A DNA stretch of 32,696 nt from Candidatus Omnitrophota bacterium (GTDB lineage: Bacteria; Omnitrophota; Gorgyraeia; Zapsychrales; Fredricksoniimonadaceae). The DNA lies in the NCBI GenBank assembly GCA_903861305.1, contig CAIOTT010000056.1, positions 69,918 to 102,613 on the forward strand, read 5' to 3'. Of this stretch, positions 75 through 22,211 are shown one piece after another (position 1 is the stretch's first letter; each line of letters starts with the position of its first letter). The notes below the pieces were generated by a model. The model was not told the DNA's origin. It made no database searches and saw only the letters and a program-made list of their open reading frames with translations. Made by a program: the position numbers and the translations under genes.

Positions 75-1289
75 TCATGGACCCTCAGCGGGTTTGGCAC
101 GCTCATCAGCAACGAGCGGTATCTTGACAGTGAATGTCGCGCCTTCCCCTGGCTTGCTCTCAACCAGGATCGTGCCGTGATGTTTTTCAATGATGCTGTG
201 GACCAGAGAAAGCCCAAGCCCCGTCCCCTGCCCCACGGTCTTGGTCGTAAAGAATGGCTCGAAGATCTTCGGCAAATGCTCCGGCTGTATCCCCATCCCG
301 CTGTCTTTAACCTCGGCATGGACATACCCTCCATGGACCAAAGTCCTGATCCAGATGACGCCATCCCCCTTGATGGCCTGCTCCGCGTTGGCGATAATGT
401 TCACGAACACCTGCAGCATCTGCTGTTCCGAGAAAGACACCGGCGGGAGGCTCCCGTATTCTTTGACCAGCTTGATCCTGTACTTGAGGGTGTTCTTGAG
501 GATCTGAAGGGCCCGGTCGATGCAAACATTCAGGTCACCCGGGACCCTGTTCTCTACAGCCGGATGAGCGAATATCTTCAGGTCCTGGATGATCTTCTTG
601 ATCTTTTCTGCCCCCTGGATGGTTTCCTTGATAAGGACGGGGCGATCCTCGAGGGTCCTGAAAAAACCATTCCCGGTCGCGATGTCCGCCGCAGATACGG
701 TCTTCAGGAACTCTTCCAGGAGATGTTCATAACTCTGCAGCGTGTAAAGATTGGAAAGGATATACGCGGTGGGATTATTGATCTCATGGGCGATACCGGC
801 CACAAGCCGCCCCAGGGATGCCATCTTTTCCGACTGGATCATACGCTCCTGGAAGGCCAGGAGCTGTTCATATGCCGCCTTGAGCTCGGCCGTGGCTTTC
901 TTCACGGCGGTGCTGTCACGGATGATCCCGACAATGAATTGATTGCCGGCCTGGTCGGTATAAAGGGACTTCTTCGTCACGATCGTCAGCGTGACGCCTT
1001 TGGCGTCGGTGAAAAACTCCTCGTTGCTGTTCACCACGCCATTTTGAAAGACCTCTTCATCCTTCCCCCAGAAAACATCCGCCTCTTCCCTGGGAAAGAA
1101 CTCATAATCCGACTTGCCCAAAAGCTCTTCCCTGGAACGCCCGACAAAACTGCACATCGCGTCATTGAGCAGGACCCAGCGGTGCTCGCGGTCCTTGACG
1201 AAAATAGGGTCCGCGACAGCGTTAATGATCGCGAAAAGATATTCCCTGGCGTCCCTGGTTTGCTGTTCATGCTCCGCATTCCCCGCCAT
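75..1289 (-). CDS. PAS-domain sensor histidine kinase
   Basis: 404 aa; PAS-like N-terminus ([43 protein letters not shown]); H-box [25 protein letters not shown]-box [14 protein letters not shown]-boxes [26 protein letters not shown]. Confidence 0.95.
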
Positions 1290-1313
1290 GTGTCACGCCT
1301 CCTCACAACGAAC

Positions 1314-1889
1314 CTACAGTGCGGTCCGCGGGACGGGCCCGATGCACGCCTCGACCACGACGCACTTCTGCTTCCAGAAGGAAAAAGAAATTTCCTGTTT
1401 CTTGAAAAGGTTGTAATCGAACAATACGCCTTCAGGAACGACATTCTTGTACGCAAGAGGGACCGAAAGGATAAGCTCGGCATACCCCAGCGCCTTGAGC
1501 TCGTTCTTGACATTGCCGCCCAGGATCCCGGTGAACTCCCCCACGACGCTTAGGACGGTCAGCTCGTCTTCCGCCTCCCGCGCGGAGCGGCCGAGCGCCT
1601 TGACAAGTTTCTCCGCGATATCCTCTTTCACGTACATGACAAAAGTCCCGACGGGAAATTTCTCGTCGGAGTCCTTTTGCGTCAGGTAATAATTGATAAC
1701 GCCGATGTAGGCCTGGCCGTTGAACTTGTCCATGGGGAAAAGGCGCATATTCCCGTTGTACTCGATGATATCCTTCTCTTCAACGACGGGCTCGGCGGAG
1801 AAATCAACGTGGCACAACTGCCTGAAGGTATCTTCCACCACCCGGGTGGCCGCCGTCTCAATGACCTGTTTTTCAATAGGCCTGGCCAT
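1314..1889 (-). CDS. CheX-like chemotaxis phosphatase domain protein
   Basis: 191 aa; segment LSVVGEFTGILGGNVKNELKALGYAELILSVPLAYKNVVPEG resembles the CheX/CheC-type E..N core; lies between a GGDEF-EAL gene and a histidine kinase gene. Confidence 0.6.
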   Translation of the reverse strand: MARPIEKQVIETAATRVVEDTFRQLCHVDFSAEPVVEEKDIIEYNGNMRLFPMDKFNGQAYIGVINYYLTQKDSDEKFPVGTFVMYVKEDIAEKLVKALGRSAREAEDELTVLSVVGEFTGILGGNVKNELKALGYAELILSVPLAYKNVVPEGVLFDYNLFKKQEISFSFWKQKCVVVEACIGPVPRTAL

Positions 1890-1892
1890 GGA

Positions 1893-3827
1893 TCAGGCCG
1901 CCCTGCGCATACTGTCCAGGAAAGGAAAAACTTCATCTTCCGGCATGGGGCGGCTCAGGAAGAAACCCTGGTAGTAGTCGCAATTATTGCTGAACAGTGT
2001 CTGGCGCTGCAGGTCGCTCTCCACGCCTTCGGCCACGACGCTCAGGTTGAGCTTGTGGGCGAGTTCGATGATCGCGTGGATCATGGCATTCTCTTCACTC
2101 TCCTTGGCGATCTCCTTGATAAAAAGACGGTCGATCTTCAGGTTGGCGATAGGCAAACGCTGCAAATGGACCAGCGATGAATACCCGGTCCCGAAATCAT
2201 CCAGGGAGACCTGGACCCCCAAAGCCCGGATGTCATTGAGGATCTTGACGGCCGTCTCAAATGAATCGATCAAAAGGCTTTCGGTGATCTCGACCTCAAG
2301 GCAGCGTGAAGGCAGTCCGCTGACCTCAAGCGCGCGTTTGATGCTCTCGACGATGTCCCCGCGCCGCAGTTGGGCCACGGAAATGTTGACCGAAATGATC
2401 ATGTCGCCGTAACCGGCCTCCAGGATCTTTTTATTGAACCGGCACGCATGCTCAAGGACCCATTCTCCGATAGGAATGATGAGCCCTGTTTCTTCCGCGA
2501 TGGGAATGAACTCGTCAGGGAACACCAGCCCGCCCTCGACCTTGAACCAGCGCAGAAGCGCCTCAAAGCCGCGGACTTTGCCGTCTTTCATGCTGACAAT
2601 GGGCTGATAAAATATAAGGAACTCGTCCTTGTCGATGGCCTCGCGCAGGCCATGCTCGACCTGCATCCGGCTGACCGCCTGCCTGTTCATCACATGGTCA
2701 AAGAAGCAGAACTGGTTGCGCCCGGAGCCCTTTGCCGCGTACATGGCCGTATCCGCGTTCTTGAGGATATCTTCAAGCGTCTCTCCATCATGCGGGAATA
2801 CCGCGATGCCGATGCTCGCCGTGATGAACAGGCTGTTGCCCGATACCACGCGCGGGACATTAAGCTGTTCACGGATACGGTCCGCGGTGTAGCGGGCTTC
2901 CTCGCCATTCGCAAGGTCGGTCAGAAGGACAATGAACTCATCCCCGCCCAGGCGCGCCATGAGGTCCGTTTCGCGGATGCATCCCGCCAGTTTCAAGGCG
3001 GTATCCTTCAGAAGCTCATCACCCACCGAATGCCCCAGGGTGTCATTTACGCTCTTGAAATGGTCCAGATCCACGAAAAGTACAGCGCACTGCATCCCGG
3101 AGCGCCTGGCATGGGCGATCCCCAGGTTCGCTTTCTCAAGGAACAACGTGCGGTTCGGCAGCGCGGTGAGCGTGTCGTAATGCGCCATGGTGAGAAGTTT
3201 GTTCTCAAGGATCTTGCGTTCCGTGATGTCCCTGCCAATGCCCACAAGGCCGCTCACATTGCCCTCCTCATCCCTGAGAGGTATCTTGGATGTCAGCAGC
3301 CAACGCTTGCTGCCCGAAGAATTTTCGACATACTCTTCGCGGCTGATCACAGCGGCACCCTTGCTCAGCACATTATGGTCGTCCTTGATGTACTGTTCAG
3401 CAAGGTGCCGCGGGTAGATCTGCGCGTCGGTCTTGCCGATCACATCAGACTCGGAGGCCACTCCCATGAAATCAAGGTCCGCGCGGTTGGTGAGTATCTT
3501 CCTGCCCTCCGCATCCTTGACATAAACGCTGTCCGGAAGGTTGTTGACCAGGGTGCGCAAAAAACTGTACTGTTTGGATTCGTTGCGGGCAATGACCCTC
3601 ATCGCGTTGCGGATCAGCAAATAAAGGAGGACCACGGTCAAACCGATAAAACACACATCCTTGAAGGCGGGGAACCTGCGGATCAAGTCGCTATTGCCGA
3701 AGTTCTTCCATAAGAGAGCATCCGAAAATAATAACCAGAGCGTCGCGACCACCGCGTAGATCAGGCTGATGGCCAGCGAAAGGAGCACCGCCAGGGACTT
3801 AATGTTAATTTTCTTCATTACTATCAA
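1893..3827 (-). CDS. Membrane-anchored PAS-GGDEF-EAL protein (cyclic di-GMP turnover)
   Basis: Two hydrophobic N-terminal helices; PAS (LVNNLPDSVYVKDAEGRKILTNRADLDFMG); GGDEF as RLGGDEFIVLL; EAL as FEALLRW with DDFGTGYSSL and KIDRLFI. The ORF begins at TTG; the ATG at 3818 (MKKINIK) is the likelier start. Confidence 0.95.
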   Translation of the reverse strand: MIVMKKINIKSLAVLLSLAISLIYAVVATLWLLFSDALLWKNFGNSDLIRRFPAFKDVCFIGLTVVLLYLLIRNAMRVIARNESKQYSFLRTLVNNLPDSVYVKDAEGRKILTNRADLDFMGVASESDVIGKTDAQIYPRHLAEQYIKDDHNVLSKGAAVISREEYVENSSGSKRWLLTSKIPLRDEEGNVSGLVGIGRDITERKILENKLLTMAHYDTLTALPNRTLFLEKANLGIAHARRSGMQCAVLFVDLDHFKSVNDTLGHSVGDELLKDTALKLAGCIRETDLMARLGGDEFIVLLTDLANGEEARYTADRIREQLNVPRVVSGNSLFITASIGIAVFPHDGETLEDILKNADTAMYAAKGSGRNQFCFFDHVMNRQAVSRMQVEHGLREAIDKDEFLIFYQPIVSMKDGKVRGFEALLRWFKVEGGLVFPDEFIPIAEETGLIIPIGEWVLEHACRFNKKILEAGYGDMIISVNISVAQLRRGDIVESIKRALEVSGLPSRCLEVEITESLLIDSFETAVKILNDIRALGVQVSLDDFGTGYSSLVHLQRLPIANLKIDRLFIKEIAKESEENAMIHAIIELAHKLNLSVVAEGVESDLQRQTLFSNNCDYYQGFFLSRPMPEDEVFPFLDSMRRAA

Positions 3828-3933: not shown

Positions 3934-6900
3934 ACTTGCCCGCGCTCACCGGCAACAGCCCAAGGAATTCGGAAATGTCCTTCAGCGGTTCCATGCCGAT
4001 GATCACAGGCCTGATCCCGTCCGCGCCATCCAGCTTGTGCAAGGCGTCGGGAACGAACTGGAACACCGCACCCTGGCCGGCGTCGCGCGACTCAACCGCC
4101 TGCATGCCGGGGCCGAGGTCAATGCCTCCGGGAACAGCAGCATGGTCTAGATCCATGCCTGCAGAAGTCGCCACCTTCCCTGGATCTTTTATCTTTCCAT
4201 TACGAACAAGGGCCTCCCTTTTTTTGTTCCACAAAACCATTGCAACCTGAGCAAAGACTTCATCCGGGCTCTTCCCGGACTGTATGGCATATTGAACCAG
4301 TATTTTGCCATCAAGTTCCTTCAGTTCCCAGGCATCCTTTGCCATCAGCTCTTTAATAAGGCTTTGGACTTTTTCAAACACATTCGCTTCGATGACACGG
4401 GAAATATCATGGGTGTCAAAAATACCCTGTTGGCGCAAAATATCTATCTGCGGGAAGTCGCTGTCAGGGTCAATGTGAACCGCCTTCAGGCCGGCAGGGA
4501 CAGCCTGCGCTGAAAACTTTACAGGCGAAGGCCGGACGAGCGGCTCAACAACTTTCTTGCGACGATCAGTTTTCTTCTCTCTGGAGGCTGTGATCACAGC
4601 TTGCACTTTCTTATCCAGATACTGCTTTGCATTGTTAAAACGCTCCTTTTCAACAAGACCTGACCTGCGGGCATATTTCATCAGTACCTGGCTATCAGCG
4701 ACTGATAACTTGTACCCCTCAAGCTCCAATTGACGTACAAGAACCTGGGCCCTCTCAATTCGCCCGTTACCGAGCAAAAGATTGTAAAAATCAGCACTAT
4801 CAAAGATCTGCTGCCCCAGGAACCATTCAACATACCCGGGCATATTTTTCCTGAACGTATTTCCAAAGGATATGGCCAGCACAGCGGCTCGATGCGGCGT
4901 AAAGATCGCCTCGCCTGAGTTTTTTCTGTACATCAAAAAATCCAGCAGGGACATGGCCCGTTCATAGCGATCATCTTTTTTAGCGATGGCATTAGCCTCG
5001 CTCTCTTCCAGCATTTTCTCACCATCCCAGCGCATGCGCAACAATTGCCGGGAAAAAACATCTTTATCCCATGAGTCGGACACAAGAGTTTTCAAAAAGT
5101 CCATCACATCCGTCGAACGCCCAGCTTCCCCGGGCGCGATGGTCAGCTTTTGCCCGAGAGACAGGACGATATCCCTGTTGGTCAGCGTGACGGCCGTCAT
5201 CTTCGAGGCATTCCTTACCGTTGAACTAAAGAATTTCCGGTACTGCATCAATTGTTTATAAGTGTACGGGGACAGCTTCCGCTTTTTAGTCTTCAAACTA
5301 TCGATCAGGGCCATGACCTGTTCGATCGTTCCCAGCTGGACAAGATTAAAGAACTTCGTGGCGTCTATATCGTTCTGGCCCAGGAACCAGCTCACCTGGC
5401 CGGCGACCTTCCCCCTCCTGTACCTGCCCAGCAATCTCGCCAGCGTAGCGGCCCTGGGAATATCAAAAAGCGGCCGGCCTTCCTTGTTCTTGTAATTCAA
5501 AAGTTCCATGAAAAAAAGGACCCGGGCGTAACCATCTTTTTTCTTCGCAAGCCTGCCGGCGGCGGGCTCCTCCCAAACCTTGTCCCCATTGAAGCGCAGG
5601 CGCGACAATTGCACCCTGAAAGGTTCACCGCGTGACGTCTTTTCAAAGTTTTTTAGGTAAACCCGGACAAGATCATCTCCCGAATTCCCGTCGATGGTCA
5701 AGCCCTCCGGGACCGTGACAGTAGCAACAGAAGCCTCAGCGGCATCGGTGTTGAAGCGGTCAAGTGCCACAGGCCCGGGTGGATCTGTTATCAATCCGCG
5801 GCGAACAAGATCCTCTCTTTTGTTCTTCCACAATTCTGCATCGATCCGCACAACCATATCATCCAAACGCAGATCTGAGCGTGTGGCATACTCTGTCAAT
5901 ATTTTACCGTTAAGCTCAGTAAGCTTCCAGACGTACACCACCTCCTCTTTCTCTTCGTCTTTACCTTTATTTTTATCTCTATCTTCATCCTTGTTCTTCG
6001 TCAGCTTGTTCAAGAGCCACTGGACTTCTTCAAAAACATTCCCCGCGACGATACGGGAAATATCATGGCCGTCAAAAATACCCAGTTGGCGCAGCGCCAC
6101 CATCTGCGAACGATAAGATCTCTTCTTGCTCATATACGATTTCCCGGCCAACAGGACAGCGTCATCAAGGTCAAAAAGCGGCCGGCCCTGCTTGTCCTTA
6201 TATGTCAAAAGTTCTGCCAGAAAAACAACACGCGCGTATCGGCCCGGCGACATCAGGACCTTTTTAACCCCTCTCGCCTCAACCACCCTTTTCCCGCCGA
6301 ATTCCATGCGTGCCAATTGCCGCGCAAAGGCCTGCTCATCCCCGGAAGTTCCTGCGAGCTCTTTCAAGAAGTCCGCAGGAGCACCAATGTCCGGACTGAT
6401 GATGACCGGCGCTGCGCCTGCCACGATCGCCGGGAACGGGTACGCACCAACCGCCTTCTGAACGGATCTGACGACCAACGTCCTGGTCAGCTGATCTCCA
6501 GGGCGCTTGCCCCTGCCTTCAGCCGGGGTCATTTTTCCTGCGGACCGATCGACCCGGCGCGCACCGGGAGAAGCCTTCCGTTCTTCCAATTCCTTCTTGA
6601 TCGCATTGATATATATCCCTTTGCCCGCACCGCCATACGGCTTTCTGGCATACTTGATCAATACTTTGCCGTCAAAAGGCGGCCGCCATCCTTCCTTCCT
6701 CAACTTTTGAATATAACCTTTGATCTTTCCGAGTAACGATTCGACAAAAATATTAAAAATATCATCGGCATCAACAATACCCTGCTCCTTGAGCCAGGGC
6801 ACATTCGCTACAACACCCGCCCTGGTCTTCGTCCCCAAAAACGTGGCCAACGTCACCACCTGATAATAATCCAGGAGAGGCCCGCCCTGATCATCCTTGA

Positions 6901-9900
6901 ATGTTGAAAGTTCGACCAAGGAAAGGGCCCGCTCATAACGATCAGGTTTCTGCGCGATCTCTTTCGCTATATCGAGCCTCAACGGGATCCCCTGCAGGCT
7001 TATCCGCAGCAACTGCCCTGCAAATGCCCCCTCATCCTTGATCTTTTTCAGGCTCTGCCAAAAAGCCCGGACATCACCCACTTCACCATCTGCCTGCGGT
7101 TCAACTGAAACCCATTCAGGAAGCTCTGCGACAGGATCTTTTTGCGCCAAAAGCTCCTTCCTTACGCGCTGCAAACATTCCCGGTCCGTAAGCTTGCGGT
7201 CCGCGGCATATTTGATCAACACCTTGCCCTCGACATCAACCCATGGCTGGCCGCCATTCTTCAAAGCATCCACCAGCGATCTGATCCTTTTATACAGCCG
7301 CCCCCTGAAGATACGGTAGATATCATTGCCATCGAAGAGGCCCTGCGCGGCCAGCCAGCCTGTGCGGGCCGGCGCCCACCGCCTGAAATTGGCCCCGTAC
7401 CTTCTGGCCAATGTCAGGGCCTGGGAAAAACTAAAAAGCGGCCGGCCGGCTTTATCCCGATATGCCCAAAGTTCGATCAAAAATACGGCCCGCGCGTACC
7501 GGTCGTCTTCCCTGGAAATTTCCTCCGCGGCTTTTTGTTTCACGCCGGCCCCATGAAAACTGATCCGCTGCAACTGCCGTGCGAACTCATCTTTATCGTC
7601 GATCTTTTGAAGCTGCTTCATAAAACCCGGAACATCCACATCGCCGCTGCCGGCCTCCGGGGTGATGGAGACCCCTTCAGGAGCAAATTTGACCGGAACT
7701 TCTTTCTTTTCCAGTTCAGCCCTCAAGTTGTTTAGCCAGGCTCCGTCTTTGGGCACCCACATGACGGCATATTTCAACAATATCTTGCCATCGAGCACCG
7801 GCGCTTCCCGGCCGCTCTGCATCAATTGCTCGATCATGAACCGGATCTTGACCACCAACCTGTTCTTCAAAATGTAAGAGATATCGCTGCCGTCAAAAAT
7901 ATCCTGCTCCATCAGCCATTGCAGACGCGACCGGACCTGGCTTCTTCCCCGCGGGCCGGACGACCCGGCGATCGTCACGGCTTGTTCAGGATCGAACAGA
8001 GGCAGGCCCTGCACATTCACGTATGTCAAAAGTTCAACCACAAAAAGCGCCTGCGCGTACCGATCGCCGCTTCGGGCGATCTCTTTGGCCGCCACAGGAC
8101 CGATGGGCCTCCCCTGCGACATGAGGCGTGCCAACTGCCGGGTAAAGACCTCTTCGTCGTCGGTCTCTTTAAGATCTCTAAGAAAATCCGCAACAGCAAC
8201 CTCCTCATTCCCTGCGGCAGGCCCGACGGAGATCCACCGGGGAATACCCGTAACGAAAGCTTCTATCGCCTCAAGTTCGGTCCGGATCCTTTTTATCCGC
8301 TCGGCGTCTATCCGCCCCGGCATCATGGCATGCTTGATCAGCATTTTACTGTCGGGCCCTCGCACTTCCGGCACAGCCTGGCTTAACCCTGCCATAAGGA
8401 GCTCGATCTTCAGGAATATCGTGTTTTTGATAATATAATAAATGTCGTCGCTGTCGAAGATGCCCTGCTTCAGCAGCCAGTTTATACGCCATAACGCCTG
8501 TTCTCTCACATTCAAGCCGGGTGATCCGGCCAATGACATGATCTGATCAAGCGTAAAAAGTAGCTGGCCATTCTCATCCTGGTATGTCAACAGTGCGATC
8601 ACGAAAAGGACCCGCGCGTACCGGTCAGGTTCCCGGGTGATCTTTGCCCATGCATTATGGTCCAGGGCTTGCCCCCGGAATTTGATGCGCCGCAATTCCT
8701 TCAGCAGAACGCCCTCCTGAACTTCTTTCAGCCCTTTCAAATATTCTCCTACATCAACGGGCTTGCCATCATCGCCCGCATCAACAGCCAGCCCTTGCGG
8801 AAAACTTGTGGACATTTCGTTACTCTTGAGCTTTTCCTTGATCCACTCCCACGGGTCATTGCCAAAAGCCCCCTGGTTGCTCATGTACGCCATCAATCTG
8901 ATGCCGTCCACCCGAGAAAGCCGGTATCCTTCACGGGACAGGTCATCGATCAGCGCCCTGGCCCTTTCCAGCCAGCTCCTGGCCAGGAGCGTATAAAACT
9001 GCCGGTCATCAAGGACTGTCTGGCCCAGGAACCAGTTGACCTGTCCGGGCAGCTGCATCCTGTTGCTGCGCTCCAAAGAATTTGCCAGCACGCGCGCGCG
9101 TGAAAGATCGAACAGGGGCTCGCCTTCGTTGTTCCTGTAATTTAAAAGTTCCATCAATACAAGGACCCGTGCATACCGGTCTTTCTTGACGGCAAGCCTG
9201 CCTGCGGCCTGCGGATCCCAGACAACTTCCCCCTGGAACCTCATGCGCGGCAATTGTCCTTCAAAAAAGCTTTCTCTCCCGGCCTGTCCAAGTCTTTGCA
9301 GGAAGTCCCGCGCATCCTCCATGCCTCTGCCATTTTCCGGATCGATGGTCAACCCTGCGGGGATCGTTATGCCGACAACAGAAGCTTCGGCGGCATCGGC
9401 ATCCGCTCTTTCGGGGGTCAGGCGTCCAGAGGGATCTTTTATCTCGTTGCGGTGAACTAAGGCATCTTTCTTCCTCGCCCACAATGCCGCATCGATAGCC
9501 CGCGCCATCTCCGTCAGGAGCAACTCTGGCCTGACGGCATACGTGAGCAATACCTTGCTGTCAAGCTCCGCCAATTTCCAGACATATACTTTCTCCTTAT
9601 CCACCGTCAATTTGTTAACAAGCCATTGGACCTCTTCAAACACTCCTTCAGCGAGGATACGATAAATATCATGGCCGTCAAAAATACCCTGTTGCAGCAA
9701 GAGATTGATCTGCCAATGGTAATCCTTCTTCTTCGTCACGGACAATTTTCCGGCTAATACAACAGCGGCCTGAAGACCAAATAAGGGTTGACCCCCGTCA
9801 TTCTTACGCATCAAAAGTTCTACCAAAAAAAGTGTCCGCGCGAATCGGGCCGCCGGCTTGACCAGCGCCACAGCGTTCCGTTCATCCGCGACCCTTTTCC

Positions 9901-12900
9901 CGGCGAATGTGATACGCGCGAACTGCCGCGCGAAAACTTCCTCATCGCCGGAAGCGGCCTTAAGTATTGCCAGGAACTCCTGCGGGATGCCATCTTTCGG
10001 GCTAATATTGACCGGGGCTAAACCAGGGGGGATCCGGGCAAGAATACCCCTGAGAGGCGCCTCGTTCTCCTCAAGGGCCTTTTGCTTCTCAAGCACTTTT
10101 TGCTTCTGAATAGCCTGAAGCTCTTTTTGCTTCTCAAGGGCCTTTTTCTTCTGAAGCGCCTTATGCGCCTCAAGCACCCTTTTCTTTTCAGCGGCTTTTT
10201 GCTTTTCAAGAGACGCCATTTCCTTAATAGTCTCTTGTCTTTCAAGCGCCCCCCGTAAGTCCTGGATACGATCCGCGTCAACAGTCCCCGTCAGGCGGGC
10301 ATACCTGATCAATATTGTCGCGTCAAGCTCAAAGCGGACCTGGCCCAGGGCCTTCAACCGGTCCATGATCAATTCGATCTTGAGAAATAACTGTTGCTGC
10401 AAAATTGAATAAATATCATGTCCGTCAAAGATCTGCTGTTCCAGCAGCCAATTGATACGCCCTAACGCCTGATCCCTGGCGAACCAGCGCAGTGTTCTTG
10501 CCAGTACCGCCGCTTCATGAATGCTGAAAAGAAGCTGTCCTGCGGCATTTTCATATCTTAACAATTCAATTAAGAAAAGGATCCGCGCATGCCAATCCGG
10601 TTCTTGCGCGATCTTTTCAAGTTCATCCTTGTCCAGATCCTGTCCATGGAATTTCATGCGTGACAACTGGCCGGGGACCGCGTCCGTTTTGATACCTTCA
10701 AGATCTTTCAAGAACATTCCAACATCAACGGGCAGGCCGTCTGGTCCCGGATCAACGGTCAGCCCTTCCGGGAGATCCACGTCCGTATCCTCATGTTCCA
10801 ACCTGTCCTTTATTTCCCGCCAGGGGTCTTTACCGAAAGCTCCCAGTTTGGTCGCATAGGCCATCAGCTTGAGGCCATCCGACGAGGAAGGTTCCCACCC
10901 TTCCGCGAGCAGTTCATCGATCGTGTTCCTGGCCTGATTCAATTTACGGCTTGCCAAAAGCACAAAGAACTGCTCCTCATCAAGGACCCTCTGCTCCAGG
11001 AACCAGGCCGCGTTCCCGGACATCCGCTGCCTGTTCGCTTCCTCCATGACATTCGTCAGCACAAGGGCCCTGGAGAGATCAAAAAGAGGCTCCCCCTTTT
11101 TATTCAAATATCCAAGAAGCTCGATCAAAAACAGGACCCGCGCGTACCGGTCTTTCCCACGGGCAAGCCTTTGCGCGTCCGTGGGGTCCAGGGATGCCCC
11201 CTTGAAATTGATGCGCGGCAACTGGCGGGCAAATGTCTCCGGGTCATCGGTCTTTTTCAGATCATTCAGAAAGCCCCGGGGATCCACCGCGCCGCCCCCC
11301 TTTTCAGGAGTGATGGCGATCCATGGCGGAATGACCATGCCGGAACGGTCTTTCTTTTGAAGCTCCCGGCGTAGATCCTTTAAACGCTCCTTATCGGCGG
11401 GGCCATGCAGGCGGGCATACCGGATCAATATACTGGCGTCAAGCGCAAGGAACGGAGGGCCATCCTGCCGCAAGAGGCTGATCATCGAGCTGATATTCAC
11501 AAATAACTGATGATGCACGATGGCATAAATATCATGCCCGTCAAAGACCTGTTGCTCCTGCAGCCAATGGATGCGCCCTAAAGCCTGTTCCCTGGCGAAC
11601 CAGTGCAGGGATCGCGCCAGGACCGCCGCTTCATGCGTGTTGAACAGCGGCCGGCCTCCCGCATTTTCATATCCCAACAATTCAATGTAAAACAGGGCCC
11701 GCGCATACCAATCCGGTTCACGGGCGATCTTTTCGAATTCCTTTTTATCCGGGTCCTGTCCCTGGAATTTCATCCGCGACAATTGGCCGGGGACCGCCTC
11801 CCGGGAGCTCCCTTCGAGGTCTTTCAGGAATCCCCGGACATCCACAAACTGGCCATCGCGTCCCCGCTCAATGGTCAATCCATCCGGGATACTCACATGC
11901 GTATCCTTGTGTTTCAACCTGATCTTTATTTCCTCCCAGGGATCTTTGCCCAGAAAATCCAGTTTGGTTGTATACGCCAGCATCCTGGCACCATCCCGGG
12001 GGGACGGCTCCCAACCTTCCGCCAGCAGTTCATCGATCAGACGACTGGCCTGATGCAATTTGCGGCAGGACAATAGTGCAAAGAACTGCTGGTCATCCAG
12101 CACTTCCTGTTTCACGAACCATGCGACCTGCCCGGACACCTGTGTCCTGTGCGCCGCGGGCAATGTACTCGCCATCACAAGCGATCTGGACAGATCAAAA
12201 AGCGGCACCCCCTGCCGATCCGTATATCCCAGGAATTCGATCAAAGACAGGACCCGCGCGTACGGGTCTTTCGTACGGGAGATCTTTTCAGCCCTTTTGC
12301 TGTCCAGAGCCTGCCCCTGGTACCTAAGCCGCTGAAGTTGATCATAAAATGCACCGGTGGTTTCTATACCTGCAAGCTGTTGCAGGAAATCCCGGACAAC
12401 ATGGTCACCAGGCTTCCCGTCTATGGTCAAACCTTCCGGGATCGTTATAGCGGCAAGGGACGCCTCGGCGGCGTCGGAACGGATCTCCAGCTCATTGGCG
12501 CCATCATAATCAAGCGACTGGTCAAAGATCTCTTCCAGTTCGACGCGTTCGCCATTCAGCCAAACCGTCACGCTGTCATCGGCTAAAGCCCTTTCCAGTG
12601 TCTCGCGGACATCAGCAAAAGATACTCCGAATTTCTGCAAAGCTTCACCCCAGGATTCCGCCTCCAGGTCAAGGCCATGTCCCAGGATATTCAGATGCAC
12701 AGGCACCAGGACCCCTCTCCCTGTCCAAAGTTCATCGCCCGTGCGTGAAGGGTTGATGGGCGGGGCGGGAATAATATGGTATAAGGTCACTTCGGAAAAA
12801 CCGCCGACACCTTTCTTATCCAATGACCGCTCCCTGCCATACTTCTTCGCATACACCAGGTCTTTATAGGTCCATTTTTTCAGCAGCCTGCGCTCGATCT

Positions 12901-15900
12901 CTTCTTCATCCAGGCCCGCATTCACAAAAAACTGCCTCCTGTCGCGTATTTGCCGGACAGGTGAAGGCAATTCCTGACGATACACGTGAGGTATTTTATA
13001 CTGATATATTATGGCCCAGTTCCTCATGAAATTGTCCATGCCTGAATTGGCACGGGCCCAGCGATACTTGCCGCAGTAACGGTCGAATCTGGCCTTGAGC
13101 CCATCCCCTTCCTGGCTTAAGCGCATATACTCAGGAAGGAACTCCTTGAAGAGCCACCCCTGCATCCGGTTGCGAACATCCAGGCTGAAGCTGAGGAACA
13201 AACGCCGCACAATGGGATCTTCCTGCCTTTTCCCTGCTTCCACTTCCTTCAACAGGGCCTTGTCCTCGACAACAGAATCATCAATGTATTGCTTTAGTTC
13301 GTCGGACAGGATGCCGAGCTCATTGAAGAGGAATTTTACGTCCTGCACATCTACCTGAAGGCCCGTTTCAACACCGCTTTTTTTATTCACCATCGTCCCG
13401 GAAACCAGGTCGGCTTTTAATTTCAACGCATCAAGCGGCAATCCCCCTGTTTTATTTACCGTCCGTAACAATAACTTGCTGCGCATATCTCCGGCGAAAA
13501 CAATGGAATTAAGGATCCGCCGCACAGGCAAACCGGTCGATCTAAGCGTGGACCACAATTTCTTGAACAACTCACCTTTTTCCGCAGACCACTGCCCTAT
13601 ACTGATAGAAAAATAGACATCCTCACCATCGGCGATCATCCAACCTTCTTCCTCCTGCGCCATCCAGAAATCCACGACCTGCCTCAAATATCCTATATTC
13701 CTGAGTAACATGACCTTGATCTTGAAAGCGTTGAACAACGGGAACCCGTCATGATCAACCTTTTGTGAAAGCCAGTCGATCTTCGGCATGATCGTTCCGA
13801 GTTCTTCCAATGAAACACGGTCAACCACATACAAAGCTTCCTTCCCCGTGAGCAATCTTTTCCCGCCACGCCGGTACGCCGCAAGAGCCCTGAACATCAT
13901 GAACCGCCGGCAGGCGCCATCCGCCCCAAGTATCCGGTTCAGATCTTTGATCATGTTGGGATCATCCGTCGCTTCTGCGTACTCCCGAAAAACTTTTATG
14001 AACTGCTCTTTAAGCCACGCCGCAGACTGCTGCCTGATATCGAGGCTGAAACTGTAAGCAACCCGCTGAAAGATATCCTCGCTTTCGGCAGAAACATCGC
14101 TTGCCGTTAACTTTTCCAGCAATGCCCTGTCTTCCCGGACCTGCGCATCCACGTGAGCGTCGAAGGCCTCAGGCCCATTTAACAACTTGCGTAACTCATG
14201 AACACCGGCCACATCGATCCTCGTCATCCCTCTGACGATCCGTTCCTGCTGCTCACTGCCCCAACGCGCTTTATTGTTCGTCTTTTTCCGCATCCAGACC
14301 AAAAATGAAATGATGGTTGAAAACTTCGTCCGGCCATCAAGATGCTGACGAAAATATTTCAAGATCGCGGGATCATCATCCAGTCCCCACTGCATGAACT
14401 GAACAATATCACTCGCCTTGAACAACCACTTTCCTGAGATCATCTGTTCTTGCGCCAGTGACTGGGCCTTTGCCGGCAAAAGAGACTGTTGATCGATAGC
14501 CGCATATCTAACCAATTGAACAGCGTGGTTGGCAGTGAACAATCTTTGCCCATCCCTCTTCAGGTCCAAAAGCTTCATTAACGCAAGCAGCCGATCCTGC
14601 AACCCTTTCTTGCCGGCGATGAACAATGCGGTCTGCTCCGTAAAGATATCCGCACCATCCATTTTCATGCGCCGAAGTTGAAGGGCCATGGCCTTGCGCT
14701 GATCCTGATCTCTTTTTTTATAAGTAGAAAATTTAATAAGAAGGGCGTCGAAACTATCTATATGCCCGTCAACCTCAGGCGCGATGGTCAGCCCCCGTGG
14801 GACCTTAACACCAACAGCCTCCCCATTGGCCGACACACTTTCAGCCTCGACATGGACCTCCAAGGGCTGCTGCAGCGCCAGTTGCGACGCGTCGATCGCT
14901 GTGACTGTCTCCGGGGCGATCTTCATCTGCATGCCGCCCGCGAAATATTTCCTGGGGATCGTTTCCCGGGTGGCCGGATCATATTCTTCACGGATAAAAT
15001 TATAAGCGCCTTTTTTGAAGGCTTCCACATACCGGCCCCAGATAGCCTCGGCTTCTTTGGGGTCATCGATATTGATGCCCGGGACCTTGTTATGGTCCAC
15101 ATAGAACCCGAGCGGAGACCCCGGCATGGCGCCCAGGAGCTTCTTCTTGTACCAGGCCGCAAGGATGAGTGAATTGTAAACCTGGCGTAACGGCGCGAAA
15201 TTTTTTCCTTCGTTGACTTCTTTTTCGAGGACAGGAATGATTATCTCGCGGATGATATCTTTGGGCAGATCTTCCCCCCTCCCATCCCCTACCTGCCGAG
15301 GGGAGGGCTCTAATGGCAGGGCAGATAATGCACCGTTCTTTTCCATAGACCGATAATCTGACTCCAGCATGACCTTGAGGCGTGCCTCGACCACGTACCC
15401 CACGGCAGACTCCGGAGGCAACCCGTCTGTCGCGCGCGGCTTTTCGTACACCACAGCCTTCGCGGGCATGATCCAAACTTTGTTGAACGTATCGACCGGG
15501 ATATCCGTGGTCCCGAATTTTGTCCGCGCCTGCCGGTACACTTCTTCCCAGAATTTCTTTCCCAGCCCGTCCTCGGGGTACATCAGGCTCGCGGTGAGCT
15601 GCTTTAACAGATAGTCCTGCGCGAGAAGGTCCCGCCCCATTTCCGTCCGGCCAAAAGCGTCCGGAACAATACGGTCCTTCTCGTACGGTGAAAGATTGAC
15701 CCACAGTTCGTTCTCGGGGACTGTGAGCGAAGCGAGGAAATATTTGATCAGGCGGGTCGCGACGGCTTTCACCTGCGCATCGGCTGCTGAAGGATCTCCT
15801 TTATCGAGGATAAAATCGAAACGGAAAGGGTCATCACGAAAAACCTTGATGCCCTTTAATAAAGGTGGCGCGAACACAGGGCTCAAGGCAATACGGGCCC

Positions 15901-16045
15901 CAGGTTCCGGCAGCAAAGCCACCCCCTGGGCATAGGCGCGCAGGTCCGACATTAAAAATGCCGGTATCAGCACAGCCGCCAGGACCCTGTGGATCATTTG
16001 CTTTACGCGCAATCCCATCCCCTGTTTTGAAAAGACCACGTCCAC
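3932..16045 (-). CDS. Giant secreted or surface repeat protein (~4037 aa) with N-terminal module, many ~190-aa repeats and a C-terminal module
   Basis: Uninterrupted ORF. Signal-like N-terminus MGLRVKQMIHRVLAAVLIPAFLMSDLRAYAQG. N-module with WVNLSPYEKDRIV and LRQVYNSLILAAWYKKKL, shared with the 26236-32598 ORF. Repeats marked by FxxQLxRMxFxG, DRYARxLFLIELL and IFDGHDIYxI. The ORF opens at GTG; the ATG at 16018 is an alternative start. Confidence 0.9.
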   Translation of the reverse strand: MDVVFSKQGMGLRVKQMIHRVLAAVLIPAFLMSDLRAYAQGVALLPEPGARIALSPVFAPPLLKGIKVFRDDPFRFDFILDKGDPSAADAQVKAVATRLIKYFLASLTVPENELWVNLSPYEKDRIVPDAFGRTEMGRDLLAQDYLLKQLTASLMYPEDGLGKKFWEEVYRQARTKFGTTDIPVDTFNKVWIMPAKAVVYEKPRATDGLPPESAVGYVVEARLKVMLESDYRSMEKNGALSALPLEPSPRQVGDGRGEDLPKDIIREIIIPVLEKEVNEGKNFAPLRQVYNSLILAAWYKKKLLGAMPGSPLGFYVDHNKVPGINIDDPKEAEAIWGRYVEAFKKGAYNFIREEYDPATRETIPRKYFAGGMQMKIAPETVTAIDASQLALQQPLEVHVEAESVSANGEAVGVKVPRGLTIAPEVDGHIDSFDALLIKFSTYKKRDQDQRKAMALQLRRMKMDGADIFTEQTALFIAGKKGLQDRLLALMKLLDLKRDGQRLFTANHAVQLVRYAAIDQQSLLPAKAQSLAQEQMISGKWLFKASDIVQFMQWGLDDDPAILKYFRQHLDGRTKFSTIISFLVWMRKKTNNKARWGSEQQERIVRGMTRIDVAGVHELRKLLNGPEAFDAHVDAQVREDRALLEKLTASDVSAESEDIFQRVAYSFSLDIRQQSAAWLKEQFIKVFREYAEATDDPNMIKDLNRILGADGACRRFMMFRALAAYRRGGKRLLTGKEALYVVDRVSLEELGTIMPKIDWLSQKVDHDGFPLFNAFKIKVMLLRNIGYLRQVVDFWMAQEEEGWMIADGEDVYFSISIGQWSAEKGELFKKLWSTLRSTGLPVRRILNSIVFAGDMRSKLLLRTVNKTGGLPLDALKLKADLVSGTMVNKKSGVETGLQVDVQDVKFLFNELGILSDELKQYIDDSVVEDKALLKEVEAGKRQEDPIVRRLFLSFSLDVRNRMQGWLFKEFLPEYMRLSQEGDGLKARFDRYCGKYRWARANSGMDNFMRNWAIIYQYKIPHVYRQELPSPVRQIRDRRQFFVNAGLDEEEIERRLLKKWTYKDLVYAKKYGRERSLDKKGVGGFSEVTLYHIIPAPPINPSRTGDELWTGRGVLVPVHLNILGHGLDLEAESWGEALQKFGVSFADVRETLERALADDSVTVWLNGERVELEEIFDQSLDYDGANELEIRSDAAEASLAAITIPEGLTIDGKPGDHVVRDFLQQLAGIETTGAFYDQLQRLRYQGQALDSKRAEKISRTKDPYARVLSLIEFLGYTDRQGVPLFDLSRSLVMASTLPAAHRTQVSGQVAWFVKQEVLDDQQFFALLSCRKLHQASRLIDELLAEGWEPSPRDGARMLAYTTKLDFLGKDPWEEIKIRLKHKDTHVSIPDGLTIERGRDGQFVDVRGFLKDLEGSSREAVPGQLSRMKFQGQDPDKKEFEKIAREPDWYARALFYIELLGYENAGGRPLFNTHEAAVLARSLHWFAREQALGRIHWLQEQQVFDGHDIYAIVHHQLFVNISSMISLLRQDGPPFLALDASILIRYARLHGPADKERLKDLRRELQKKDRSGMVIPPWIAITPEKGGGAVDPRGFLNDLKKTDDPETFARQLPRINFKGASLDPTDAQRLARGKDRYARVLFLIELLGYLNKKGEPLFDLSRALVLTNVMEEANRQRMSGNAAWFLEQRVLDEEQFFVLLASRKLNQARNTIDELLAEGWEPSSSDGLKLMAYATKLGAFGKDPWREIKDRLEHEDTDVDLPEGLTVDPGPDGLPVDVGMFLKDLEGIKTDAVPGQLSRMKFHGQDLDKDELEKIAQEPDWHARILFLIELLRYENAAGQLLFSIHEAAVLARTLRWFARDQALGRINWLLEQQIFDGHDIYSILQQQLFLKIELIMDRLKALGQVRFELDATILIRYARLTGTVDADRIQDLRGALERQETIKEMASLEKQKAAEKKRVLEAHKALQKKKALEKQKELQAIQKQKVLEKQKALEENEAPLRGILARIPPGLAPVNISPKDGIPQEFLAILKAASGDEEVFARQFARITFAGKRVADERNAVALVKPAARFARTLFLVELLMRKNDGGQPLFGLQAAVVLAGKLSVTKKKDYHWQINLLLQQGIFDGHDIYRILAEGVFEEVQWLVNKLTVDKEKVYVWKLAELDSKVLLTYAVRPELLLTEMARAIDAALWARKKDALVHRNEIKDPSGRLTPERADADAAEASVVGITIPAGLTIDPENGRGMEDARDFLQRLGQAGRESFFEGQLPRMRFQGEVVWDPQAAGRLAVKKDRYARVLVLMELLNYRNNEGEPLFDLSRARVLANSLERSNRMQLPGQVNWFLGQTVLDDRQFYTLLARSWLERARALIDDLSREGYRLSRVDGIRLMAYMSNQGAFGNDPWEWIKEKLKSNEMSTSFPQGLAVDAGDDGKPVDVGEYLKGLKEVQEGVLLKELRRIKFRGQALDHNAWAKITREPDRYARVLFVIALLTYQDENGQLLFTLDQIMSLAGSPGLNVREQALWRINWLLKQGIFDSDDIYYIIKNTIFLKIELLMAGLSQAVPEVRGPDSKMLIKHAMMPGRIDAERIKRIRTELEAIEAFVTGIPRWISVGPAAGNEEVAVADFLRDLKETDDEEVFTRQLARLMSQGRPIGPVAAKEIARSGDRYAQALFVVELLTYVNVQGLPLFDPEQAVTIAGSSGPRGRSQVRSRLQWLMEQDIFDGSDISYILKNRLVVKIRFMIEQLMQSGREAPVLDGKILLKYAVMWVPKDGAWLNNLRAELEKKEVPVKFAPEGVSITPEAGSGDVDVPGFMKQLQKIDDKDEFARQLQRISFHGAGVKQKAAEEISREDDRYARAVFLIELWAYRDKAGRPLFSFSQALTLARRYGANFRRWAPARTGWLAAQGLFDGNDIYRIFRGRLYKRIRSLVDALKNGGQPWVDVEGKVLIKYAADRKLTDRECLQRVRKELLAQKDPVAELPEWVSVEPQADGEVGDVRAFWQSLKKIKDEGAFAGQLLRISLQGIPLRLDIAKEIAQKPDRYERALSLVELSTFKDDQGGPLLDYYQVVTLATFLGTKTRAGVVANVPWLKEQGIVDADDIFNIFVESLLGKIKGYIQKLRKEGWRPPFDGKVLIKYARKPYGGAGKGIYINAIKKELEERKASPGARRVDRSAGKMTPAEGRGKRPGDQLTRTLVVRSVQKAVGAYPFPAIVAGAAPVIISPDIGAPADFLKELAGTSGDEQAFARQLARMEFGGKRVVEARGVKKVLMSPGRYARVVFLAELLTYKDKQGRPLFDLDDAVLLAGKSYMSKKRSYRSQMVALRQLGIFDGHDISRIVAGNVFEEVQWLLNKLTKNKDEDRDKNKGKDEEKEEVVYVWKLTELNGKILTEYATRSDLRLDDMVVRIDAELWKNKREDLVRRGLITDPPGPVALDRFNTDAAEASVATVTVPEGLTIDGNSGDDLVRVYLKNFEKTSRGEPFRVQLSRLRFNGDKVWEEPAAGRLAKKKDGYARVLFFMELLNYKNKEGRPLFDIPRAATLARLLGRYRRGKVAGQVSWFLGQNDIDATKFFNLVQLGTIEQVMALIDSLKTKKRKLSPYTYKQLMQYRKFFSSTVRNASKMTAVTLTNRDIVLSLGQKLTIAPGEAGRSTDVMDFLKTLVSDSWDKDVFSRQLLRMRWDGEKMLEESEANAIAKKDDRYERAMSLLDFLMYRKNSGEAIFTPHRAAVLAISFGNTFRKNMPGYVEWFLGQQIFDSADFYNLLLGNGRIERAQVLVRQLELEGYKLSVADSQVLMKYARRSGLVEKERFNNAKQYLDKKVQAVITASREKKTDRRKKVVEPLVRPSPVKFSAQAVPAGLKAVHIDPDSDFPQIDILRQQGIFDTHDISRVIEANVFEKVQSLIKELMAKDAWELKELDGKILVQYAIQSGKSPDEVFAQVAMVLWNKKREALVRNGKIKDPGKVATSAGMDLDHAAVPGGIDLGPGMQAVESRDAGQGAVFQFVPDALHKLDGADGIRPVIIGMEPLKDISEFLGLLPVSAGK
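4140..12455 (-). repeat. Tandem array of 14 copies (last one shortened) of a ~185-190 aa protein repeat, ~555-565 nt basic period
   Basis: The IFDxxDIY-equivalent motif recurs near 4425, 4805, 5370, 6065, 6770, 7335, 7890, 8455, 9010, 9675, 10425, 10985, 11545 and 12095, each with the same flanking motifs. Boundaries approximate. Confidence 0.9.
10060..10225 (-). repeat. Low-complexity K/E/Q-rich predicted coiled-coil linker inside the repeat array
   Basis: Translates as LEKQKAAEKKRVLEAHKALQKKKALEKQKELQAIQKQKVLEKQKALEENEAP. The DNA shows imperfect tandem repetition of ctttttgcttctcaag-type units. Confidence 0.85.
14400..14810 (-). repeat. Divergent outlying copy of the ~190-aa repeat
   Basis: GLTIAPEVDGHIDSF...ALQLRRMKMDGADIFTEQTALFIAGKKGLQDRLLALMKLLDLKRDGQRLFTANHAVQLVRYAA...GKWLFKASDIVQFM aligns by eye with GLTIDPxxDG...QLxRMxFxG...IAxxxDRYARxLFLIELL...LF...WLxxxIFDxxDI. 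Confidence 0.7.
14925..15960 (-). other. Conserved N-terminal module, copy 1 (in the 4037-aa protein)
   Basis: Blocks shared with copy 2: WVNLSPYEKDRIV, TEMGRDLLAQDYLLKQLTASLMYPED, DTFNKVWIMPAKAVVYEK, NFAPLRQVYNSLILAAWYKKKL, ETIPRKYFAGG. Confidence 0.9.
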
Positions 16046-16090
16046 CTATTATGAAAGATAACATATATTATTTATAGGTTTCAAGCTGCG
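16046..16090 (-). promoter_or_regulatory. Possible sigma70-like promoter for the 4037-codon gene
   Basis: Minus strand TTGAAA-(18 nt)-TATCTT in a very AT-rich 35-bp intergenic gap: TTGAAACCTATAAATAATATATGTTATCTTTCATAATAGG. Confidence 0.3.
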
Positions 16091-16464
16091 GGGGCAAGGG
16101 GGGCCGAAGGACGGTCCGGCATAGCGTGATACTGGTAATGATTGACTTCGATCGTGCCGTTAAAGAGCTTGCGCAGCTTGTCAGGGCGGGCGTCATCCCA
16201 TGCCGCGGCGTCAATGGATGGCCAGTGTTGCGCCGCGAACTCCCGGTTGATGCCCGGGGCCATATGGCGCGCGATCAGTGCGGCTTCGATAAGGATCGTT
16301 CCGGAACCGCACATGGGATCGATCAGGAGCGTTTCTCGGTCCCAGGGGCTGAGCAGGACCCTGTCGGCAACAAGAAGGTCATGGAAACCAAGGTCCTGCA
16401 GTTCGCGTTTAACGATCGCCTCAAGCCCGAATGTTGAAGTTACGATCAGACGGATCTTTTTCAT
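16081..16464 (-). pseudogene. Internally deleted remnant of a THUMP-domain class I SAM methyltransferase (RlmL/YpsC-type 23S rRNA methyltransferase)
   Basis: 127 aa. N-terminus MKKIRLIVTSTFGLEAIVKRELQDLGF is typical of the family, followed after ~10 aa by the MTase region LLSPWDRETLLIDPMCGSGTILIEAALIARHMAPGINREFAAQHWPSID, then a C-terminal-like KLRKLFNGTIEVNHYQYHAMP. Most of THUMP and the NPPY catalytic region are absent. The ATG overlaps the upstream RNase stop by 4 bp. Confidence 0.75.
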
Positions 16465-18779: not shown

Positions 18780-18807
18780 ATCATAACAACCCGGAACAAA
18801 AAATCAA
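18780..18807 (-). promoter_or_regulatory. Candidate sigma70-like promoter upstream of ppk2
   Basis: Minus strand TTGATT-(16 nt)-TATGAT in the 92-bp gap between menE and ppk2. The -35 hexamer overlaps the menE stop codon. Confidence 0.4.
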
Positions 18808-20222
18808 GCGATGCGTTCCAGGCCTTCGCCGGAAACCAGAACACCAGCCCAGCGCGGACGGTCCACCTTGAGCGGCTCAGGCCCTTCGGCCTGGGGCCAG
18901 CGGAAGAAATCGGCCGGGACCTTGAATTTAGGAAGGGATCGGCACAGATGCGCGGCAAGCAAAGCCCGCGAGACCTCGGCCCCCCGCATACATCGGATGA
19001 GCGCTACAGGGACGCTGCCGAACTCTTCATCGGGCTTCCCCGCGACGAGCGCGGCAGCCACACCCGGGACTTTCAGCAGCCAGGCTTCGACCTCCTCGGG
19101 CTGGATATTCTCCCCGCCTCTGAAGAACATGTTGTCCTTGCGGCCTTTGACCCGAAGCCGGCCGTCCGCATCCAGCTCACCGGTGTCGCCGGTGGCGAAC
19201 CACCCGTCCGCGTCGAAAGGCTTTTCCATGCCCGAGGCGCACGCATACCCCTGGAATAAAACCGCCCCTTTGACCATGATCTCACCGTCGTCTGCCAGCT
19301 TCAGCTCACGGTACGGCAATACGCGCGCGCAGGCAGCAACGGCATCAGCGGCCCCAAGCCGGGATGAGGTGGCGACCTGCGACGCTGTTTCCGTCAAGCC
19401 GTAGGAAATATGGATCGACAACCCCGCGGCCACCGCTTTCTCTAGAAGACGCACAGGGATGGGCGCTCCGCCCAGAAGGATGGCTTTCAACGCGCGCGCC
19501 GCCGCAACACCGCCGGGACCCTCGAGCAGGCGGGCCAGCTGGGTCGGCACCAAAGACACGTGCGTGACGCCGTCCCTCACAAGGACCGCGGCAGGGTCCT
19601 GTTCATCGTGGCCCAGGACAACAGCCGCCCCGGCTGAAAAACAGCGCCAGAGGATGCCGATCCCTCCGACATGAAATAATGGCAGTGACAAAAGCCATCG
19701 GTCCCGGGGGCCAACTGCAATGGCGTCCGCGGCGCCAACGGCGTTATAATGAAAATTGCCGCAGCTCAGCACCGCGGCCTTCGGCATCCCCTGGCTGCCA
19801 GATGTAAATACAACAGCCGCCGCCTGATCAGCCGCGAACCCGACCGCTTCAGCCGCATCAGGGCCCGTCAACGGCATGGCTGCAACGGATGCCGCAAGAT
19901 CACTGTCATCGACAAACGAGGCGCAGTCCAGTTGGGACGCCAAAGCCTTCGCGGCAGGCACAGGATAGCGGGGATTAAAAAGAACGCTGACACATCCTGC
20001 CCGCCAGAGAGAAAAAAGAGCCGCGATATGATCAAGGCTGTTACGGGCAAAGAGCCCCACCCGGCTTCCCGCCGCCGGGCCATCCTGCGTGATCCGCCGC
20101 ACGGCGGCGTTGATGCGCCGGTCCAGTTCCAGGTAAGATATTTCATTGCCGCGGTCACGGACCGCGCAGGCCTGCGGCGTGAGACGGGCATGCACAGAGA
20201 TGGGACAGCCTATTTCAGGCAT
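18804..20222 (-). CDS. menE: o-succinylbenzoate-CoA ligase
   Basis: AMP-binding motif AAVVFTSGSQGMPKAAVLS; HISYGLTETAS; GWFATGDTGELDADGRLRVKGRKDNMFFRGGENIQPEEVE. Start taken as the ATG at 20222 (MPEIGCPISVHARLTPQACAVR), overlapping the menC stop; the ORF extends to 20252. Confidence 0.9.
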   Translation of the reverse strand: MPEIGCPISVHARLTPQACAVRDRGNEISYLELDRRINAAVRRITQDGPAAGSRVGLFARNSLDHIAALFSLWRAGCVSVLFNPRYPVPAAKALASQLDCASFVDDSDLAASVAAMPLTGPDAAEAVGFAADQAAAVVFTSGSQGMPKAAVLSCGNFHYNAVGAADAIAVGPRDRWLLSLPLFHVGGIGILWRCFSAGAAVVLGHDEQDPAAVLVRDGVTHVSLVPTQLARLLEGPGGVAAARALKAILLGGAPIPVRLLEKAVAAGLSIHISYGLTETASQVATSSRLGAADAVAACARVLPYRELKLADDGEIMVKGAVLFQGYACASGMEKPFDADGWFATGDTGELDADGRLRVKGRKDNMFFRGGENIQPEEVEAWLLKVPGVAAALVAGKPDEEFGSVPVALIRCMRGAEVSRALLAAHLCRSLPKFKVPADFFRWPQAEGPEPLKVDRPRWAGVLVSGEGLERIA

Positions 20223-21351: not shown

Positions 21352-22184
21352 AAAAGGACCCGGCCGGTGGCGGCCAAAGCCTCGTTAAGCGCCGGTCCTT
21401 CACTGAGAGTAAGAACGGTCCTGATCACGGGGGCCGCGACCAGAAGCGTCAGCGCCGCCAGCAGGGTCCAGGGATGCGCGTGCGGGCCTGTAACAAAACA
21501 AAAAGGGACGAGCGCCGCCCCCAGCAGGCACAGGCAATATTCCCATCGGGCAAAAACCCGGCCGAAACGGACCGCGAGCGTGCGCTTGCCGGCCTTGCGG
21601 TCGGCGTCAATATCGCGCAGGTTGTTGACGCAAAGGATGGCGGTCGACAGAAGCCCCGGCCCGACTCCCGCCGCGACAGCCGCCGGATCAAGGCGAAGGG
21701 CCTGCACATAATACGTCCCGGCAACAGCCACAGGCCCAAAAAATACCAGGACAAAAATATCCCCCAGCCCGAGATACCCGAGGGCATGGCGTCCCGCCGT
21801 ATAAAGGATCCCTGCCGCGATGGAAAAGACCCCGATGGCCACCACGGGCCAGCCGCCGCGCCAAACCAGATAAAGCGACACGAGCGCCGCCAGCGCAAAG
21901 GCCAGGATAAAACTGTTGCGCACTGTCGCAGGCGCGATAAGACCCGCCTGCGTCACACGCACGGGGCCGATGCGCTCCGGCGTGTCAGCGCCTTTGCGGA
22001 AATCAAAATAATCATTGGCCAGGTTGGTGCCGATCTGGATAAGGAGCGCTCCCGCCAATGCGCAGCCAGCGGCAAGCGCATGCCCCGCGCCGTCATGCCA
22101 GGCCATGGCCGCGCCGACAACAACAGGCGCCGCGGCCGCGGGAAGGGTTCTGGGACGGATGGCCATCAACCATGGATTTGACAT
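21312..22184 (-). CDS. menA: 1,4-dihydroxy-2-naphthoate prenyltransferase (UbiA family)
   Basis: MSNPWLMAIRPRTLPAAAAPVVVGAAMAW; IGTNLANDYFDFRKGADTPERIGPVRVTQAGLI; LCVNNLRDIDADRKAGKRTLAVRFG; multiple hydrophobic helices. Confidence 0.95.
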   Translation of the reverse strand: MSNPWLMAIRPRTLPAAAAPVVVGAAMAWHDGAGHALAAGCALAGALLIQIGTNLANDYFDFRKGADTPERIGPVRVTQAGLIAPATVRNSFILAFALAALVSLYLVWRGGWPVVAIGVFSIAAGILYTAGRHALGYLGLGDIFVLVFFGPVAVAGTYYVQALRLDPAAVAAGVGPGLLSTAILCVNNLRDIDADRKAGKRTLAVRFGRVFARWEYCLCLLGAALVPFCFVTGPHAHPWTLLAALTLLVAAPVIRTVLTLSEGPALNEALAATGRVLLCYAALFSIGWCL

Positions 22185-22211
22185 AAAAGAAAACCTTACC
22201 TTTAGCGATCG

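Follow-up and report, generated by a model that had tools for sequence, protein, structure and literature searches.

Very long open reading frames (ORFs) are a recognised feature of the phylum Omnitrophota. Seymour et al. 2023 (PMC10066038) describe them as poorly conserved and functionally obscure, with few annotated domains and suggested roles in adhesion or predation. Two further bodies of work are relevant here: helical solenoid proteins have been reviewed (PMC11514114), and two papers on Type IX secretion in Bacteroidota (PMC11285876, PMC12618676) describe cargoes that carry a signal peptide and a conserved C-terminal domain. We analysed a 32,696-nt stretch of Candidatus Omnitrophota bacterium (assembly GCA_903861305.1, contig CAIOTT010000056.1, positions 69,918 to 102,613), referred to below as the window, and in it the protein P0001. 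P0001 is a giant Omnitrophota protein with a signal-peptide-like head and an N-terminal family domain (N-dom), a middle made mostly of ~187-aa repeat units, and a C-terminal family domain (C-dom). It shares with the published giant ORFs the phylum, great length and a scarcity of annotated domains, whereas those counted in that paper exceed 20 kb and the P0001 ORF is 12.1 kb. Within the open literature covered, the main-text passages of PMC10066038 mention no comparable repeat unit or shared N- and C-terminal pair.

The repeat array was mapped with a hidden Markov model (HMM) built from the units and with diagonal scans; these took the place of a BLASTP self-comparison, whose lack of off-diagonal rows was put down to HSP containment. 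A first-pass annotation, made from the letters of the DNA, had proposed 14 copies of a ~190-aa unit and one outlier. This was borne out: 13 full units of ~187 aa lie between residues 1199 and 3816, followed by one shortened unit, so that the array spans residues 1199-3948 (Table 1). The full units matched the HMM at E-values of 4e-61 to 3e-75 and the outlier at residues 412-552 (window ~14.39-14.81 kb) at 5e-13, while the match of unit 14 covers residues 3856-3944, with the N-terminal part and the middle of the unit missing from it. As a control, the best 40-residue ungapped self-match in shuffled P0001 scored 43, compared with hundreds of windows above 48 in the repeat region. Read from N to C terminus, the units follow the order A B A B C / A B B B B C / A A' C, exactly as proposed. 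Successive copies are spaced ~555-561 nt apart inside blocks, with longer steps at C units and linkers. A DAAEAS linker precedes each block-leading A unit, in three places. One correction applies: what stands before the first linker is not a C unit but a small domain that also occurs in P0003, a protein of the same genome.

A maximum-likelihood tree of the 13 full units, to which the short unit 14 (u14) was added separately for class C, recovered two of the three proposed classes, so that the proposal largely withstood the tree check set for it. Class A (u01, u03, u06, u12) formed a clade with support of 96/96, class C with 100/99 (likewise 100/99 with u14), and the split of A+A' from B+C received 98/93. 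Class B reached only 54/39 and is no supported clade; it may be a weak clade, or else a grade that gave rise to C. The nested duplication suggested earlier fits these data, most clearly at the first two A-B pairs, where protein identity is 51% (u01/u03) and 61% (u02/u04). Among seven unit pairs compared, the highest DNA identity was 74.2% (u02/u04), and no pair was near-identical. The A-B-(...)-C order would have arisen by duplication of single units and of A-B pairs, and its three blocks are delimited by the C units and the DAAEAS linkers.

The profile search that had been set beforehand as a possible refutation assigned the unit to no known repeat family. Pfam, searched with the whole of P0001 at E<=1 and with nine separate units at E<=10, listed no repeat family and nothing near the cut-off; TPR, HEAT, ARM, ANK, PPR, TAL, mTERF, Ig and other Pfam families gave no match to P0001. 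NCBIfam and PHROGs returned nothing convincing, and a PDB profile search with the window's own units had no match at E<=10. With a broadened profile, the PDB yielded a designed PPR, whose E of 0.0019 is the sum of seven weak repeats, and BurrH at E 0.32. The unit falls into no sequence family of Pfam, NCBIfam or the PDB, in agreement with the original view that it is not TPR, HEAT or Ig-like. We conclude that this ~187-aa all-helical repeat unit is previously undescribed.

The helical nature of the unit, which the first-pass annotation overlooked, emerged from an AlphaFold2 model of the adjacent pair u03+u04 (a single job per domain, from an alignment of 20 rows). The model has a mean predicted local distance difference test score (pLDDT) of 88.5 and a predicted template modelling score (pTM) of 0.65. 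Each modelled unit contains a short strand region (IPxGLxIxPE) and one helix, then helices with tight turns throughout, and the helix list gives about four helical hairpins per unit. The unit is therefore predicted with good confidence to be an alpha-solenoid block, which would amount to some fifty hairpins over the whole array. Six positions are invariant in the 13 units (R42, G47, G82, D120, L143 and L180), and the other conserved positions are mostly core hydrophobics. Homology between hairpins within a unit was not significant, as the best pair was equalled in 1/60 shuffles before correction for ten tests.

Structure searches with this model led mainly to TAL-effector-like structures. Against the PDB, the best Foldseek E-value was 0.016, with none below 0.001, and ranks 1-11 and 13-14 were, by title, TAL-effector-like proteins or TAL-based editors (E 0.016-0.2). 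In VIA-align, TAL-like proteins and BurrH led (Z 5.9-8.0, first 34 rows) and mTERF came next, the whole set running from Z 4.5 to 8.0 with root-mean-square deviations of 10-14 A over long alignments. The VIA list was without TPR, HEAT or ANK structures, an absence that does not rule those folds out. Viral folds in BFVD gave no clear match (best E 0.15). The resemblance to TAL-like proteins and mTERF is a lead about shape, with no family membership implied, because the VIA-align guidance is that helical repeats with Z under ~13 may reflect mere common arrangement.

TAL-effector-like and BurrH solenoids, the top structural matches, stack short-long helical hairpins as a superhelix, an arrangement that the P0001 units may share, but theirs is one ~33-residue repeat, whereas P0001 repeats every 187 aa, each block holding about four hairpins that differ from one another and a beta linker. 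We found in the unit no homogeneous TAL-like repeat of ~33-35 residues and no recurring two-residue hypervariable site, and its DRYAR loop is conserved. Sequence kinship with the BurrH hairpin was rejected, since its score of 13.4 was equalled by 15/150 column shuffles. The mTERF proteins are also helical-hairpin solenoids (VIA Z 4.5-5.8, for example 3.5 A over 118 residues with an mTERF-family chain), yet the P0001 units have no mTERF sequence-family match. PPR/TPR-type solenoids share the helix-turn-helix unit, and the last hairpin of the P0001 unit resembles a designed PPR, scoring 20.6 against a shuffle maximum of 17.8 (0/150 reach it; HHalign probability 12%). Only this one hairpin resembles PPR, however, the ~187-aa period misfits tandem 35-residue motifs, and there is no Pfam match.

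These neighbours raise the idea that the solenoid binds nucleic acid, by analogy with its nearest folds (TAL-like, mTERF) and its nearest local pattern (PPR). The leading Foldseek matches, the BurrH and mTERF rows in VIA-align and the last hairpin's score above all 150 shuffles speak for it. Foldseek never improves on E 0.016, though, the VIA Z values fall in the range common for helical repeats at the large deviations given above, and similarity to BurrH is no better than that of shuffles. We consider nucleic-acid binding very unlikely, given that the net charge of most units is close to zero, that the tie by sequence is weak and that P0001 looks exported.

Export is likely, judging from the hydrophobic head with its AQ-type end and from cysteine depletion. 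The N-dom head is hydrophobic in 97/100 family members, with 'AQ' nearby in 80, as in the AYAQ of P0001. The start of P0001 as listed is a GTG, with ATG alternatives close by at residues 10 and 17. Cysteine is rare both in P0001, with 4 among 4037 residues (1.0 per 1000), and in the family (~2 per 1000), compared with 13.8 per 1000 in 11 annotated neighbouring genes. No second clear membrane helix was found in P0001 beyond the head. A cytoplasm-facing scaffold, for which the hydrophobic head would be a mere membrane anchor, could explain why some relatives have ATP-dependent enzyme domains, but it sits badly with the AxAQ-like ends and the roughly seven-fold cysteine depletion across the family, and we regard it as improbable.

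Both ends of P0001 recur in other large proteins, a second point that had gone unnoticed. Residues 15-374 of P0001, its N-dom, share 52-64% identity with the N-terminal regions of P0002, in the same window, and P0003, on another contig of the genome (C55), while the remainders differ. Both end domains were found in P0001 (E 5e-167 and 8.6e-15) and in P0002 (E 1e-154 and 1.6e-6), and no Pfam or NCBIfam model covers either. The genome holds at least 52 N-dom matches, a count from the 52 of 66 candidates that were scored, and 45 matches to the C-terminal 'GGIDL' consensus. Among the fetched loci, 74 of ~86 complete N-dom ORFs have the C-dom too, with its end 0-19 residues from the C-terminus, and ~12 uncut ORFs have the N-dom only. 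By sequence, P0001 is assigned to a large, putatively exported Omnitrophota family with constant ends and about fifty otherwise different members in the genome. Of 117 genomes sampled from the phylum, 30 gave N-dom matches, which were strong in the window's order and a single genome beyond it and weak in others; N-dom loci in the contig database are almost all titled Omnitrophota or Omnitrophica. One N-dom/C-dom protein with a DnaJ domain (L111) comes from a RefSeq record titled Phenylobacterium sp., which is probably an Omnitrophota contig, misnamed or from a contaminated bin.

What lies between the constant ends is mixed. A Pfam scan of 20 cargo regions gave mostly no match, with single cases of a histidine-kinase-like ATPase, HEAT_2, PPDK_N, a trypsin-like protease and DnaJ, and with methyltransferase-like and ATP-grasp-like matches, some of them below the curated cut-off. 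P0002 itself appears as a fusion of cytosol-type enzymes (4-alpha-glucanotransferase GH77 and others) behind a signal peptide, with a weak C-dom. Because mixed cargo sits between constant ends, we suspect that the ends are sorting tags; a sorting role for the N-dom in particular is a guess. Type IX cargoes offer a likeness in working principle only, as many cargoes there carry a signal peptide and a conserved C-terminal domain; here the C-dom is ~60 aa, of the type 'GGIDLN...FNxDPAM...PVIINIxPL', and is paired with a ~340-aa N-dom. Tentatively, and at well below even odds, the two domains could be address labels for a lineage-specific and so far undescribed route of export or surface display in this Omnitrophota order. 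In the most expanded genomes such a route would carry about fifty dissimilar cargoes each, including the 14-unit solenoid and enzymes that may act on other cells.

The same mixture of cargo bears on a possible effector role, in which P0001 would be released or delivered on or into a host or prey cell, its array binding a host macromolecule, and the family would be the effector repertoire of predatory or parasitic Omnitrophota. Cytosol-type enzymes and a DnaJ domain among the cargoes would suit such a role, as would the strong paralogue expansion and the argument, in the passages of PMC10066038 cited above, that Omnitrophota include predators or parasites, with giant ORFs whose role is obscure. 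Most cargoes, however, have no recognised domain, and neither a translocation signal nor a host is known, no search having been aimed at a delivery apparatus. We find this role rather doubtful.

Relatives of the repeat unit are sparse. When 81 genomes of the order were searched with the broadened profile, 5 contained the unit: the own genome, where it occurs in P0001 and P0003, and four others (G016, G033, G025 and G050). In G016 it is present about four times in each of two neighbouring N-dom/C-dom proteins; G033, G025 and G050 have single units. The 14-unit array was seen in none of the 80 other genomes, an absence that is soft because assemblies are incomplete. The G016 pair (L030:1602-12766, contig C38; ~1.8-1.9k aa each) has a simpler architecture, perhaps similar to that of the protein from which P0001 descends. 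A 'SFSxDxR' domain is common to P0001, P0003 and the G016 proteins (E 3e-16 against G016a), and the small domain at residues ~1110-1188 is 42% identical between P0001 and P0003 over 79 aa (E 4e-17). In G033 (L031, contig C62), a frame of >10,000 codons combines, by eye, helix-turn-helix-like, ROK-like, epimerase-like and peptidase-like parts with one repeat unit.

Taken together, we favour P0001 as an exported superhelical binding scaffold or adhesin, with a probability of roughly 55%, binding being the inferred part. P0001 would leave the cytoplasm by its signal peptide, the step with support, and the N-dom and C-dom may then act as sorting or anchoring ends that place it. The units are predicted to stack into a long helical superhelix, which, going by the general behaviour of solenoids, could bind a partner (a protein or surface polymer) over an extended surface. 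Several points weigh against this reading. P0001 yielded no binding partner, adhesin domain or anchor motif. The pTM of 0.65 makes the angle between units uncertain and leaves the superhelix geometry between them unfixed, and the 20 rows of the alignment were drawn mostly from paralogues in P0001 alone. The N-dom model is middling (pLDDT 70), with no fold match above VIA Z 4. Finally, relatives with cytosol-type domains (GH77, methyltransferase, histidine-kinase-like ATPase, PPDK_N, DnaJ, ATP-grasp) are odd for plain surface proteins.

Table 1. Coordinates of P0001, its parts and neighbouring features in the window
Feature	Position	Strand	Basis or remark
P0001, very probably exported repeat protein, 4037 aa	3932..16045	(-)	one uninterrupted open frame, 12.1 kb
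Signal peptide, residues ~17-40, end AYAQ	15926..15997	(-)	hydrophobic stretch in P0001
N-dom, residues 15-374 incl. signal peptide	14924..16003	(-)	HMM E 5e-167
Outlier unit u00, N-terminal two thirds of unit	14366..14812	(-)	first-round profile E 5e-13
Second conserved segment, 'SFSxDxR' domain, two copies, residues ~631-694 and within 801-1112	12710..14155	(-)	BLASTP self-match E 5e-6
Small conserved domain, residues ~1110-1188	12482..12718	(-)	beta-grasp-like by eye; common to P0003
DAAEAS linker 1, residues 1191-1196	12458..12475	(-)	exact
Unit 1, type A	11897..12451	(-)	HMM
Unit 2, type B	11339..11896	(-)	HMM
Unit 3, type A	10781..11338	(-)	HMM
Unit 4, type B	10223..10780	(-)	HMM
K/E/Q-rich, coiled-coil-like spacer	10049..10222	(-)	sequence; tandem DNA repeat family D6
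Unit 5, type C	9455..10048	(-)	HMM
DAAEAS linker 2, residues 2217-2222	9380..9397	(-)	exact
Unit 6, type A	8813..9373	(-)	HMM
Unit 7, type B	8255..8812	(-)	HMM
Unit 8, type B	7694..8254	(-)	HMM
Unit 9, type B	7133..7693	(-)	HMM
Unit 10, type B	6566..7132	(-)	HMM
Unit 11, type C	5810..6433	(-)	HMM
DAAEAS linker 3, residues 3434-3439	5729..5746	(-)	exact
Unit 12, type A	5168..5722	(-)	HMM
Unit 13, type A'	4592..5167	(-)	HMM
Unit 14, type C, shortened	4202..4519	(-)	HMM positions 110-186 only
C-dom ('GGIDL'), residues 3971-4032 of 4037	3950..4135	(-)	HMM E 8.6e-15
P0002, second N-dom/C-dom family member	26236..32598	(-)	GH77, aldose-epimerase-like, ROK-like cargo
Menaquinone-type run	18804..26232	(-)	
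127-aa ORF	16081..16464	(-)	
Signalling genes	75..3827	(-)	

The menaquinone-type run (chorismate-binding, thiamine pyrophosphate enzyme, enoyl-CoA hydratase, UbiA, MenC-like, AMP-binding) lies between P0002 and P0001, immediately downstream of P0002 and on its strand. The 127-aa ORF lies 35 bases upstream of P0001 and has a partial RlmL-type methyltransferase match (UPF0020 positions 21-65 of 197), so it looks like a fragment or a short relative. Downstream of P0001 are a PAS sensor kinase, a CheX-like protein and a PAS-GGDEF-EAL protein.

With these results, one long Omnitrophota ORF becomes readable: its repeat unit can be defined and has a predicted fold, and its two conserved end domains place about fifty large proteins of one genome in a single family. 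If the ends are indeed sorting tags, they would offer a direct way to predict which proteins are exported in a phylum that has no isolates, and to test the hypothesis that its members live as predators or parasites.

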